A stretch of DNA of 64,000 nucleotides, taken from positions 409,988 through 473,987 of the forward strand of contig JAACJU010000001.1 in the NCBI GenBank assembly GCA_021378565.1, in the 5' to 3' direction. Below are positions 55,358 through 64,000 of the stretch, one piece after another. This DNA comes from Arcobacter sp. LC1. GTDB lineage: Bacteria > Campylobacterota > Campylobacteria > Campylobacterales > Arcobacteraceae. The notes below the pieces were generated by a model. That model saw only the letters and a program-made list of their open reading frames with translations, was not told the DNA's origin and searched no databases. The stretch's first letter is position 1. The number at the start of each line of letters is the position of its first letter. Both the position numbers and the translations under genes were made by a program.

Positions 55358-55717
55358 GTGTTAGGAATTGATATAGTTAATATAAGTAGAATGCAAAGAT
55401 TAATGCAAAGATTTCCCCAAAAAGGACTTGCAAAATTCTTAAACCAAGATGAAATTTGCTTGATTAAAAATCCGCAAAATGCAGCTGGATTTTTTGCAGC
55501 AAAAGAAGCAGCCTCAAAAGCTTTAGGTACTGGTATTGGAAAACATTGCTCTTTTAGCGATATAATTATTTCAAAAAATAAGCTAAATGCACCTAAAATA
55601 AAATTTTCAAAAAAGATTAAAAAAGAATTTAAAATAAAAAAAGCTTATCTTTCAATCACTCATGATAAGGGCTTAGCTATTGCTGTTGTATTTTTGAAGA
55701 GATGCAAAAAATCCTAA
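55358..55717 (+). CDS. acpS: Holo-ACP synthase
   Basis: Adds 4'-phosphopantetheine to acyl carrier protein. 119 residues: GIDIVNISRMQRLM, AGFFAAKEAASKALGTGIG and LSITHDKGLAIAVV. GTG start at 55358 with AAGG 7 bp upstream; divergent from the permease. In C. jejuni I recall fliL just upstream, which is absent here. It is distinct from the Sfp-type enzyme at 60620, which serves the NRPS. Confidence 0.92.
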   Translation: MLGIDIVNISRMQRLMQRFPQKGLAKFLNQDEICLIKNPQNAAGFFAAKEAASKALGTGIGKHCSFSDIIISKNKLNAPKIKFSKKIKKEFKIKKAYLSITHDKGLAIAVVFLKRCKKS

Positions 55718-59899: not shown

Positions 59900-60547
59900 C
59901 TAAAAAGTATAAGCAAGTCCTAGAGAAATCACAGGATACCACTGAATATATTTGCTTATACCTGCCAACATATCTTTGAGGGCATCTTTTTCATCTTTAG
60001 CATCATTTTTAAGATCTGTGCATTCTGCTTTAGACATTGCATCAGAACACTGCGTTGTTAAATCTAAATTTGCATCACCTTCATGGACTGCTCCAAGATT
60101 AAACTCAAAATGAAAACCTTCATAAATTGAAGCTGTACTATAACCAATACCAACATAAGGGGAATATTTCGGAAAGTCTAAATCTAGTTTATAAGAGCCA
60201 TCATTTCCATCTGTTGGTATAGCTTTTAAACTCAGCCCATTTTTGTTGTAAACCATACCAGCACTCAGAATAAATCCACCTGAGAAAAGATGGTAATCAA
60301 AAATTGCAGTACCTGAACGCAATCGCGCATTTAAATCCAATTGCAAATTATCACTTTTACTATCTAATTTATACTTATAATTATTTACTCCTAATCTAAA
60401 ACTAAGATTGTCAGTCAAACTAGCCCCTAGTTCAATCCCAGGTCCAAGGGTATTTGCCTTTATCCCAACATAAGGGTATCTAAAAAAATTACCTGCGTTA
60501 AGTGTTATAACTCCTAAAATAAGATAAAAAAATATTATTCTTTTCAA
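59900..60547 (-). CDS. Small outer-membrane beta-barrel protein
   Basis: 215 residues: signal peptide (1 to about 18), alternating amphipathic beta-strands (YPYVGIKANTLGPGIELGASLTDNLSFRLGV) and a terminal Phe (LGLAYTF). A loop near 150-185 is acidic with two Cys (LTTQCSDAMSKAECTDL). Eight strands seem likely. It sits at the distal end of the NRPS-MFS-PPTase run after a 72-bp gap; whether it belongs to that operon is uncertain. Confidence 0.75.
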   Translation of the reverse strand: MKRIIFFYLILGVITLNAGNFFRYPYVGIKANTLGPGIELGASLTDNLSFRLGVNNYKYKLDSKSDNLQLDLNARLRSGTAIFDYHLFSGGFILSAGMVYNKNGLSLKAIPTDGNDGSYKLDLDFPKYSPYVGIGYSTASIYEGFHFEFNLGAVHEGDANLDLTTQCSDAMSKAECTDLKNDAKDEKDALKDMLAGISKYIQWYPVISLGLAYTF

Positions 60548-60619
60548 GTTTTCATCCTTTTTTCTTCTCTTAATATGTTACTTAAAAAAATATTAATATC
60601 TACTTATAATATAGCTATA

Positions 60620-61303
60620 TTATTTTTTATGCAAATCAATACTTGAATAAAATTTTGGCTGAATAGGCTCCTTTTTATCTAAAAGCACAAAAGATAAAAA
60701 AGTTTTATCATCAAAATTATAAGTAAAATATCTATCTTTTTTAAGCATAAAAGTTTGGTAAGACTCACTTTCTTTACAAAATTTAGAAAAATCAATCTTT
60801 CTTGGATTATCTAAAAAACCCGTGCCTTTTGCTTTTAAATATGCTTCTTTTAAAGTCCAATAAGTAAAAAATAATTCTTTTTTTTTACTTGCTTTATAAA
60901 AATTTTTTTCTTCTTCTTGGCTTAATATCATATCCAATATTTTAGTATCAATTTTTATATTCTCATTAAAATCTTCAACATCTATACCACAATTTTTAGA
61001 AGTAGAAACTATCACGTAAGCGCAAGTTGTTGTGTGTGATAGATTAAAATAAAACCTACTTTCATATTTTTTTGCTAACTTAGGCTTAAAAAATTCATTA
61101 CATTCAAATTCTATTAAACTTGGATTAATATCTAAATAAGAGCTTAAAATTATACGGAGCAAAGCATGGCTTTTTATATAAGAATTTTTATCATTTTCTT
61201 TAACAAATTTTAAAGATTTTATATTTTCTTCTTGGTTTAAATAAGTATTTAAAGTCAAAGTATCAGTATAATCACTAAAATTTATATGCCAAATATCAAG
61301 CAT
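60620..61303 (-). CDS. Sfp-type 4'-phosphopantetheinyl transferase
   Basis: Loads phosphopantetheine onto carrier domains of the adjacent NRPS. 227 residues with FYFNLSHTTTCAYVIVS, the Mg site NCGIDVEDFN and FTYWTLKEAYLKAKGTGF. It begins inside the end of the MFS gene (8-base overlap), so it is co-translated with it. A second transferase beside acpS is typical where secondary metabolism exists. Confidence 0.92.
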   Translation of the reverse strand: MLDIWHINFSDYTDTLTLNTYLNQEENIKSLKFVKENDKNSYIKSHALLRIILSSYLDINPSLIEFECNEFFKPKLAKKYESRFYFNLSHTTTCAYVIVSTSKNCGIDVEDFNENIKIDTKILDMILSQEEEKNFYKASKKKELFFTYWTLKEAYLKAKGTGFLDNPRKIDFSKFCKESESYQTFMLKKDRYFTYNFDDKTFLSFVLLDKKEPIQPKFYSSIDLHKK

Positions 61304-62537
61304 TTTTATATTTTCTTGCTTTAAATGCTATGATTAATGCTAACCCAACTAGAATACAAGCATCAAAAATAAAGCTTAGTTTAATCGCAGGCTTAAAAGT
61401 TCCTAAAATTTCATTTAAAAAAGGAAGATATTTTAAAACGCTAGGCATAACAACATCACTAATAAAAGAGCTAAGCGAATATCCAAGTATTAAAGAAAAA
61501 GCCATTATAGAATTTCTTAGCCCAAATAAACGGCCTTTGAGGTCATCATCTATTTCAACCTGCCAAAAAGTATAATTTAGTGTGTTTATTACAGAAGACA
61601 CAAGCATAAATAAAAATGAACCAATAGTTATAAGTAAAACATTAACATGTAAAAATGCTAAAAATAAAATTAGTCCAAGAAGGACTGTCATAATTAGCAT
61701 ATAAAAAAAGTATTTTTTTGTTTTAAAGGCAAACATTATTACTGCACCTACAAGCATACCGATTCCAGATATACTCATTATTCTACCTAGAGTTTGTATA
61801 TTTGAAATATCAAGCACCAAAGGTGTAATTAGAATGCTGACTAAGGCCATGCTAAAATTTATAACAGCAAACAATACTAAACTTAAAAAAAGAGCATTGT
61901 TTTTTCTAAGGTATTTCCAAGCTTGGGTTAAATCACTTTTCATATTTTTAAGTCTTATTTTGGTGTTATTTTCATAAACAGACTTATTAAATTTCATAAA
62001 TGATATATAAATCAAAGCTAGCATAAAAGTGCAAATATCTAAGTAAAATACATATTTTACACCAAGTTTATCTAGTAAAGTAGCTGAAGCTAAAGGCGCA
62101 ACAATAAAAATCAATGCAAAACCAAATTGAATCAAAGAAGAAAATTTATTCATACTTTCTTTTTTTATTTCTTTTGATATAACTATATTTAAAGACAAGA
62201 AAATTAAAGAAGAAAAAATAGATGCTAAAGCTATTAAAAGGAGAAAAAATATAGTGTAAACATGTCCATTTTCTAAAAATACTAAAATTATTACACTACA
62301 AAGCCCAGCTCCTCCATGTCCTAAAAGCATAAGGATTTTTTTATTATATTTATCAACAAAAATACCTATAACTGGAGATAAAGCAAGCTCTGGTAAAATT
62401 ATAAATATAGTAAACATAGAATAATAAAAGAGTGATTTCGATTGGTTATAAAGATATAAATTTAATGCAAAATCACTTACATTTGTTCCAAATAAGGACA
62501 CAAGTTGAACAAGAATTAATATAGCAATTTTTAACAA
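61296..62537 (-). CDS. MFS exporter next to NRPS
   Basis: 413 residues, eleven to twelve spans, of the EntS/macrolide-efflux type: LALSPVIGIFVDKYNKKILMLLGHGG (motif A) and GRLFGLRNSIMAFS. Family members often export siderophores or peptides made by an adjacent synthetase, the likely role here. It starts 24 bp after the NRPS stop. Confidence 0.87.
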   Translation of the reverse strand: MLKIAILILVQLVSLFGTNVSDFALNLYLYNQSKSLFYYSMFTIFIILPELALSPVIGIFVDKYNKKILMLLGHGGAGLCSVIILVFLENGHVYTIFFLLLIALASIFSSLIFLSLNIVISKEIKKESMNKFSSLIQFGFALIFIVAPLASATLLDKLGVKYVFYLDICTFMLALIYISFMKFNKSVYENNTKIRLKNMKSDLTQAWKYLRKNNALFLSLVLFAVINFSMALVSILITPLVLDISNIQTLGRIMSISGIGMLVGAVIMFAFKTKKYFFYMLIMTVLLGLILFLAFLHVNVLLITIGSFLFMLVSSVINTLNYTFWQVEIDDDLKGRLFGLRNSIMAFSLILGYSLSSFISDVVMPSVLKYLPFLNEILGTFKPAIKLSFIFDACILVGLALIIAFKARKYKNA

Positions 62538-62561
62538 ACTAGAACCTTTAAAAGATCGATT

Positions 62562-64000
62562 TTAATCATTTTTTTCATTTTTATAATACTCCACCAAAAC
62601 ATCTAGATTTTCTTCTCTTATTAGGCTATGATGAGTACCATTAATTTGCTTAACTTTAATATCTTTAACCATATATTTATTCCAGCCATAATCATAAGGT
62701 GTCAAATCATCTTGTTCATCTTGAACTTTGGCTTTAAATAAAGTTACTTTGCAAATTTTATTCATAGCTTTAGCTTTATAATTCATAATAATTTGGATGT
62801 TACTTTTATAATTTTCATAGCTAACTTCAAAATCTTGTGAGCTTATTTTACTTTTATCAGTATTAATATATTCTAAAATACATTTTTTTCTTTCTTCTGA
62901 GGTTTTACTTGCATATTCTTTAAAATTAATCAAAAGGTCTAATGAATTTAATTTAAAATATTCTTTCAAAGAGTCAAATTCAAATTCTAAATAGCTTTTA
63001 CCTCGCATTAACAATCTTAAAATATCTGGCTCACGAGTATCTAAAATAACCAAAGAATCAACTTCTTCATCATTTTCTAACAAAATTCTAGCCATTTCAT
63101 AAGCAATAAGCCCACCTTGAGAATAGCCTAAAAGTCTATAAGGACCTTTTTCCTGAATCTTTTTCATATTCTCTATGCTGATTTTTGCTAGCATTTTAAT
63201 ACTTCTATCTTTACCTTTAATTTCATTAATCTGAACACCATAAAATGATTGATTTTTTCCTAACAAAGAAGATAAATCTTTATAAACAAAAGGGTTTCCT
63301 TCGATGCCTGGCACAGCAAAAATAGCTCTTTTTGTGCCACCTTCACAAATAGGAACGATAATATCGGCTTGCTGGTTATTTGCAAGATATTCAACTATTT
63401 GTTCTATACTTGGAGCTCTGAAAATTGCCACAACATCAAGTTTTTTATTTAGTTTATTATTAATTTTTGATATCAACTCAAATACCAATAAAGAATGTCC
63501 ACCTAGTTCAAAGAAGTTATCTTTTATACCTACATTTTTAACATTTAGTGTTTGTTCAAATATACTAGCTAAGTCTTTTTCTAGTTTAGTTCTAGGGGCT
63601 ATATAAGCTGTACTTGCACTAAGAGTTATTTTTATACTCTCTAAAGCTTTTTTATCTACTTTTGCATTAGGAGTTAAAGGAATAGCTTTAATTTGTTTAA
63701 TAACTAAAGGTATCATATACTGTGGTAAGCTTTTAGCTAAAGAAGTTTTAATAGTATTAGTTTTTATTAAAGGTATGTTTGAAGTAATGAATGCTATTAG
63801 TGCTTTAGAGTTATTAATCTCTTTTGCAATTACAACAGCTTCTTTAATATCAACTTGGGCTAATAGCTGTTGTTCAATTTCTGCTAATTCTATTCTATAT
63901 CCTCTAATCTTAACTTGTTCATCTATTCTTTGTATGTATTCTATGTTACCATCTTCAAGGTATCTTACTAAGTCTCCTGTTTTATATAATTTAGTATTTT
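62562..64000 (-). CDS. Nonribosomal peptide synthetase, terminal A-PCP-TE part (5' end outside)
   Basis: Reads in from the right edge. First the end of an adenylation domain: YKTGDLVRYLEDGNIEYIQR, then QVKIRGYRIELAEIE (A8) and a PLTPNAKVDKKAL (A10, Lys) motif. Next a carrier domain with FFELGGHSLLVFELI (phosphopantetheine Ser). Last a type I thioesterase: LLGYSQGGLIAYEMA (Ser), a LVILDTREP Asp and the GTHHSLIREE His. The ATG at 63716 is internal. The substrate cannot be read because the A-domain pocket is outside the window. A thioesterase shows this is the last module. The A-domain start and further modules lie beyond 64000. Confidence 0.93.
   Translation of the reverse strand, partial: NTKLYKTGDLVRYLEDGNIEYIQRIDEQVKIRGYRIELAEIEQQLLAQVDIKEAVVIAKEINNSKALIAFITSNIPLIKTNTIKTSLAKSLPQYMIPLVIKQIKAIPLTPNAKVDKKALESIKITLSASTAYIAPRTKLEKDLASIFEQTLNVKNVGIKDNFFELGGHSLLVFELISKINNKLNKKLDVVAIFRAPSIEQIVEYLANNQQADIIVPICEGGTKRAIFAVPGIEGNPFVYKDLSSLLGKNQSFYGVQINEIKGKDRSIKMLAKISIENMKKIQEKGPYRLLGYSQGGLIAYEMARILLENDEEVDSLVILDTREPDILRLLMRGKSYLEFEFDSLKEYFKLNSLDLLINFKEYASKTSEERKKCILEYINTDKSKISSQDFEVSYENYKSNIQIIMNYKAKAMNKICKVTLFKAKVQDEQDDLTPYDYGWNKYMVKDIKVKQINGTHHSLIREENLDVLVEYYKNEKND

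Follow-up and report, generated by a model that had tools for sequence, protein, structure and literature searches.

A nonribosomal peptide synthetase end with a transporter and an Sfp-type phosphopantetheinyl transferase in Arcobacter sp. LC1, probably part of a lipid-initiated assembly line

We analysed a window of 64,000 nucleotides from Arcobacter sp. LC1 (bases 409988-473987 of contig JAACJU010000001.1, here C1), whose right edge at position 64000 is the end of C1 in the assembly. At this edge lie the 3' end of a nonribosomal peptide synthetase (NRPS) gene, a transporter gene of the major facilitator superfamily (MFS) and a gene for an Sfp-type 4'-phosphopantetheinyl transferase (PPTase). 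Based on their domains and on the way in which two contigs break off, the window probably holds the back half, and contig C22 of the same assembly the front half, of one lipid-initiated line with the order FAAL-ACP-C-[gap]-A-PCP-TE (FAAL, fatty acyl-AMP ligase; ACP and PCP, acyl and peptidyl carrier proteins; C, condensation; A, adenylation; TE, thioesterase). Because the likely front half starts with a FAAL, it points to a lipopeptide. The gene set is real and rare, and FAAL-led lipopeptide NRPSs are already known as a kind.

Two contig ends and a putative assembly line

The features of the window were taken from a list of open reading frames (ORFs) and a Pfam search with curated bit cut-offs (Table 1). 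The synthetase end is a 478-residue open frame that continues up to the window edge and matches AMP-binding_C (27.2 bits, cut-off 24.5), PP-binding (48.8, cut-off 20.8) and Thioesterase (74.4, cut-off 26.4). In an alignment with two relatives, the metagenome-assembled genome (MAG) "Campylobacteraceae bacterium" M10_metabat2_scaf2bin.064 (G591) and a Sulfurimonas symbiont of Alviniconcha (G117), the PCP motif FFELGGHSL, the TE serine in GYSQGG and the TE aspartate and histidine were all aligned. The sequence-only reading of this DNA had described an A-PCP-TE end; the PCP and the TE are present, but since C1 stops at the window edge there is no whole A domain, just a tail that starts from what we take to be the A7 motif. 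The MFS ORF begins 24 bp past the NRPS stop and the PPTase ORF overlaps it by 8 bp, and these spacings, together with the Pfam domains, bear out the claim that a synthetase end, an exporter-like gene and an Sfp-type PPTase form one tight run. None of the three ORFs contains an internal stop. A lack of C or A domains upstream, which the same reading had named as a refutation, concerns sequence beyond the end of C1. A search with the NRPS-end protein for a fragment from a sister strain gave a top match of 41% over 98%, so the gene could not be extended in this way; twelve plasmid records gave short matches covering 1-4% of the query.

Profile searches of the strain's own genome matched condensation (PF00668) at a single place and AMP-binding (PF00501) at four. 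The former and the best of the latter both lie at the end of C22 (L010:16056-18398), in a piece carrying AMP-binding, a DIP2-like AMP domain, PP-binding and the start of Condensation, all above cut-off. The Condensation match comprises the first ~75 positions of the domain and is then cut off by the contig end, in an orientation that would lead on into C1. The best single-ligase models for the C22 ligase are FAALs (PRK05850, 427 bits, cut-off 775), so that the piece reads as a FAAL, then a carrier, then the start of a condensation domain, as in a FAAL-initiated lipopeptide NRPS. No polyketide synthase domains were found in the parts read, namely the window NRPS end and the C22 piece; no ketosynthase search of the own genome was made.

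In a scan of named genomes (27 loci), G591 gave the highest identity among the matches extending as far as the TE (48%, locus L020). There, a single ORF of 4011 residues encodes a FAAL, three condensation and three additional AMP-binding domains, four carriers and a TE, with a PPTase gene 120 bp upstream. This FAAL-ACP-(C-A-PCP)x3-TE synthetase is like the proposed line in its domain order, in having a PPTase nearby and in the presence of an MFS relative in the genome. It differs in that the PPTase lies upstream of the synthetase and the MFS relative on another contig, and its TE is only 42% identical over 115 residues.

In the proposed line, the Sfp-type PPTase would attach phosphopantetheine arms to the carriers, and the FAAL would adenylate a fatty acid and then load the first carrier. 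Condensation domains would hand the acyl chain to amino acids picked by A domains, the terminal TE would release an acyl-peptide in acid or cyclic form, and the MFS protein would export it. The gap between the two contigs would measure at least ~2.3 kb, enough for the remaining C domain and an A-domain core, that is, for one residue, and may contain two or more modules, compared with three in G591.

Several observations weigh against joining the two pieces in this manner. No sequence connects C22 to C1, and the FAAL models on C22 score below their curated cut-offs. The last 55 bases of C22 (L010:18383-18437) duplicate part of its carrier region (L010:17902-17956) without a mismatch but out of frame with the condensation domain; this duplication may have arisen in assembly or be a real, gene-breaking rearrangement. 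A stand-alone amino-acid A domain on contig C2 could serve this line or another. The MFS relative of G591 lies away from the synthetase, and an MFS profile search of G117 found none. A search for a 16S gene in the assembly gave none, so that some sequence is missing from it. In favour of the join, C1 stops 9 bases short of LYKTGDLVRYLEDGNIEY, a stretch of protein that does not vary among the three G591 modules, which raised the idea that a between-module repeat stopped the assembler and that the gap spans more than one module. In the G591 DNA, however, this stretch is 83-88% identical between modules, with a longest exact run of 32 bases, and the modules have 20 repeated 40-mers and no repeated 55-mers in common. 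At the DNA level the case for a repeat as the cause of the C1 break is therefore weak. The specificity pocket of the window's A domain falls outside the assembled sequence. When the A domains of G591 were aligned, the first and third were 85% identical, and the second was 68-69% identical to them.

The sequence-only reading had looked to condensation domains and further modules as a check on the synthetase. A partial C domain was found at the end of C22, whereas the rest of that domain and the A core were not found in the assembly by the PF00668 and PF00501 searches. That a lone, partial C domain is all the assembly contains, and that the C22 frame hits a stop within the repeated 55-base tail, would fit a broken remnant, in which the synthetase has been disrupted and the repeat marks a real deletion or rearrangement. 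We consider this quite improbable. The window NRPS frame and the MFS and PPTase ORFs are intact, the catalytic residues are aligned and both breaks fall at contig ends. Fifty-five bases is, moreover, a common assembler word length, which counts against a remnant, and because the last 55 bases copy the carrier region exactly and out of frame, the stop at the C22 end probably reflects the assembly rather than a true end.

A second alternative is that FAAL-ACP-C on C22 and A-PCP-TE in the window belong to two separate genes, possibly of one pathway. In G117 (locus L018) a FAAL-led ORF and a TE-ended ORF stand apart with the PPTase between them, although the record contains runs of N, and a 1293-aa protein (P0068) is listed with FAAL, carrier and condensation domains. 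Against this, everything is encoded in one ORF in G591, and both pieces of the LC1 genome run off their contigs in matching directions. We thus regard two genes as unlikely, if somewhat less so than a remnant, and a single line divided between C22 and C1 as the probable arrangement.

Beyond two AMP-binding proteins on C2, the condensation and AMP-binding searches found no other NRPS pieces in the own assembly. One is the stand-alone A domain mentioned above (within L004:10167-16620; 508 aa, 295 bits, cut-off 317.4), near which lie two ketosynthase-III-like genes and an AAC(3)-like gene and, judged by eye, two short-chain reductases and sugar-nucleotide genes; as a guess, this group is perhaps concerned with surface-sugar decoration. 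The other is a 576-aa ORF (L011:4297-6027) with a weak, divergent A-domain match (82.5 bits, cut-off 317.4).

The transferase, the transporter and the siderophore question

The PPTase matches ACPS (PF01648) at 54.3 bits (cut-off 25) and AASDHPPT_N (PF22624) at 36.7 bits (cut-off 27), and the best of its four matches to solved structures is Sfp (1qr0, E 6.6e-8). Its length of ~220 aa, its membership of the ACPS fold family and the Sfp match place it in the Sfp type, and a KEAYLK stretch is aligned with its relatives; no NCBIfam equivalog reached its cut-off. It is 41% identical to the PPTase beside the synthetase in G591, 39% to that of G117 and 32% to that of a further genome, G353. An AcpS is encoded separately in the window (Table 1), which makes it likely that the Sfp-type enzyme, as a second PPTase, is dedicated to the synthetase; BrnI was shown to have such a role with barnesin (PMC13096860). 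Barnesin A, from Sulfurospirillum barnesii, is the product of brn, a Campylobacterota lipopeptide line with its own PPTase, and was seen in E. coli only when the native BrnI was supplied; the broad-range MtaA did not work (PMC13096860). The proposed line resembles brn in phylum, in its putative lipopeptide type and in having its own PPTase. It appears to differ from brn in that the latter is a hybrid of NRPS and polyketide synthase, has a starter C domain and uses a cyclic-peptide transporter, with no FAAL described (PMC13096860). Barnesin is thus one precedent in the phylum, of another type. As a likely dedicated enzyme, the LC1 PPTase offers a handle for expression.

The transporter is an MFS protein by its MFS_1 match (103.9 bits, cut-off 33.4). 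All curated models scored below their cut-offs, with 115.8 bits for the H+ antiporter model TIGR00900 (cut-off 319.6), 57.8 for Mef(C) macrolide efflux (cut-off 870) and 32.2 for EntS (cut-off 324). It is thus like the EntS and Mef exporters in being an MFS protein that weakly matches the same models, and unlike them in falling far below every curated cut-off. The label "EntS-type" given by the sequence-only reading is not supported, the EntS score lying under its own cut-off and below those of TIGR00900 and Mef(C). Eight relatives at 44-93% identity were present among the 65 matches listed, the sole named one being from a Campylobacterota MAG; the 93% relative is on a contig of only 2027 bases. 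A profile built with the window sequence matched 6 of 398 genomes of the order at 1e-20, strongly only in the LC1 genome (1.8e-188; next best 1.6e-26), and one of four chosen genomes, G591 (4.1e-192). Forty-two plasmid records matched the MFS protein, all at under 60%, and the five of them that were listed at under 30%. On contig C187 of G591 (L073), which is separate from the synthetase contig, the 47% MFS relative, an RND (resistance-nodulation-division) pump and a stand-alone thioesterase run in one direction.

A hint of siderophore synthesis in the sequence-only reading was not supported: the AMP-binding and Lys/Orn oxygenase searches found no siderophore chemistry, and the likely front half starts with a FAAL. 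A siderophore synthetase with an EntS-like exporter would draw on the MFS gene adjoining the NRPS, on weak matches to EntF (161.5 bits, cut-off 2400) and EntS, and on the barrel-type outer-membrane protein gene nearby; FAAL-led lipopeptide siderophores do exist. The EntS score, however, is far under its cut-off, and the four PF00501 places of the genome are the C22 FAAL, the stand-alone A domain and two in one C2 ORF. For the stand-alone A domain no dihydroxybenzoate ligase appeared among the best 25 of 99 NCBIfam matches, nor did one among the 14 matches of the 576-aa ORF. The sole Lys/Orn oxygenase match is weak and partial, its ORF fits disulfide-reductase models better, and the family also matches 12 of 14 control genomes. 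Hence, no catechol or hydroxamate precursor genes were identified in the own assembly by the AMP-binding and Lys/Orn oxygenase searches, the A domains in the gap being unread. We judge a siderophore to be very unlikely, the least probable of the alternatives, and an exported lipopeptide remains the preferred reading. According to a review, Campylobacter makes no siderophores and uses those of others (PMC7662028).

Relatives and rarity in the Campylobacterota

The rarity of NRPSs claimed by the sequence-only reading is in line with the genomes drawn, since the condensation-domain search matched 3 of the 104 genomes of the family and 5 of the 397 of the phylum, the LC1 genome being counted in both. 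The family sample comprises 20 genera, and no other genome of the same genus was among the 31 relatives drawn. Most of the family members listed measure 2-3.5 Mb, a size that favours an Arcobacter-like family over Campylobacter itself.

FAAL-initiated lipopeptide NRPSs, with many matches in cyanobacteria, are like the proposed line in their FAAL-ACP-C start and in the terminal TE at the other end. They are unlike it in host phylum, the C22 piece being 37-52% identical to the 119 non-self matches listed, and in that the middle of the line is unassembled here. A FAAL tree was built from 30 rows, 25 of them hand-picked from those 119 matches and five from the Campylobacterota. The LC1 FAAL groups with those of G591, G117, P0068 and P0112 with a support of 91/89, under the 95 needed. 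The Campylobacterota rows do not form one group, requiring 5 changes, as many as with shuffled labels, and two others, G303 and G032, sit elsewhere on very long branches.

A literature search, with most subscription journals outside its coverage, brought no FAAL-led line in Campylobacterota to our notice. It is tentatively possible, though on balance doubtful, that the LC1 genome, G591 and the vent-snail Sulfurimonas symbiont represent a dispersed but related family of FAAL-started lines with their own PPTases across the phylum, whose exported lipopeptides would form a new class, without kinship to barnesin, and would shape host or community life. The Campylobacterota have few known peptide natural products, and a FAAL-started line in three lineages would imply that lipopeptides play a part in the phylum.

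Further synthetases were also seen. G032 (L045-L046, of the same family) and G033 contain a different, large cluster resembling NRPSs and polyketide synthases, in which three condensation domains are spread across several ORFs, accompanied by a PPTase-like ORF and, downstream, by what looks by eye like a TonB-receptor ORF. In G303 (L057-L060, Campylobacterales) condensation domains occur at four places, each on a different contig, and several of the ORFs run off contig ends; this is another broken multi-module NRPS. In G353 (L063-L064, on a contig of 2,510,109 bases) a 2201-aa NRPS ORF precedes more large ORFs and one resembling a PPTase, in an order that fits brn.

Neighbouring features and genome context

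Table 1. Features at and near the right edge of the window (positions in the window)
Feature	Position	Strand	Basis and remarks
NRPS gene 3' end: A-domain C-terminal part, PCP with attachment serine, terminal TE	62562-63998	-	ORFs, Pfam; cut by contig end
MFS transporter, likely exporter	61296-62537	-	ORFs, Pfam, curated models, relatives
Sfp-type 4'-phosphopantetheinyl transferase	60620-61303	-	Pfam, solved-structure match, relatives
AcpS, separate holo-ACP synthase; context, outside pathway	55358-55717	+	TIGR00516 109.6 bits, cut-off 59.8
Outer-membrane barrel-like protein, not counted in pathway	59900-60547	-	CarO/OMP (outer-membrane protein) matches under cut-off

The barrel-like gene, a separate gene, occupies the first ~650 bases of the interval between position 59900 and the window edge. 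It was left out of the pathway because a 42% relative sits in G051, a genome of the family (86% complete) in which a condensation-domain search gave no match. The G+C content of the PPTase (22.7%), MFS (26.2%), NRPS-end (27.2%) and FAAL (27.6%) genes was set beside a mean of 29.4% (standard deviation 3.6; 58 window ORFs), and as a test for an island this is not decisive. A flanking YigZ/UPF0029-type gene is present in 29 of 31 genomes (LC1 included), at 30-39% in the others. Additionally, the PanC encoded in the window is matched better by three other solved PanCs than by 3mxt, which we take to be the C. jejuni PanC, and the genome is probably not that of a Campylobacter proper.

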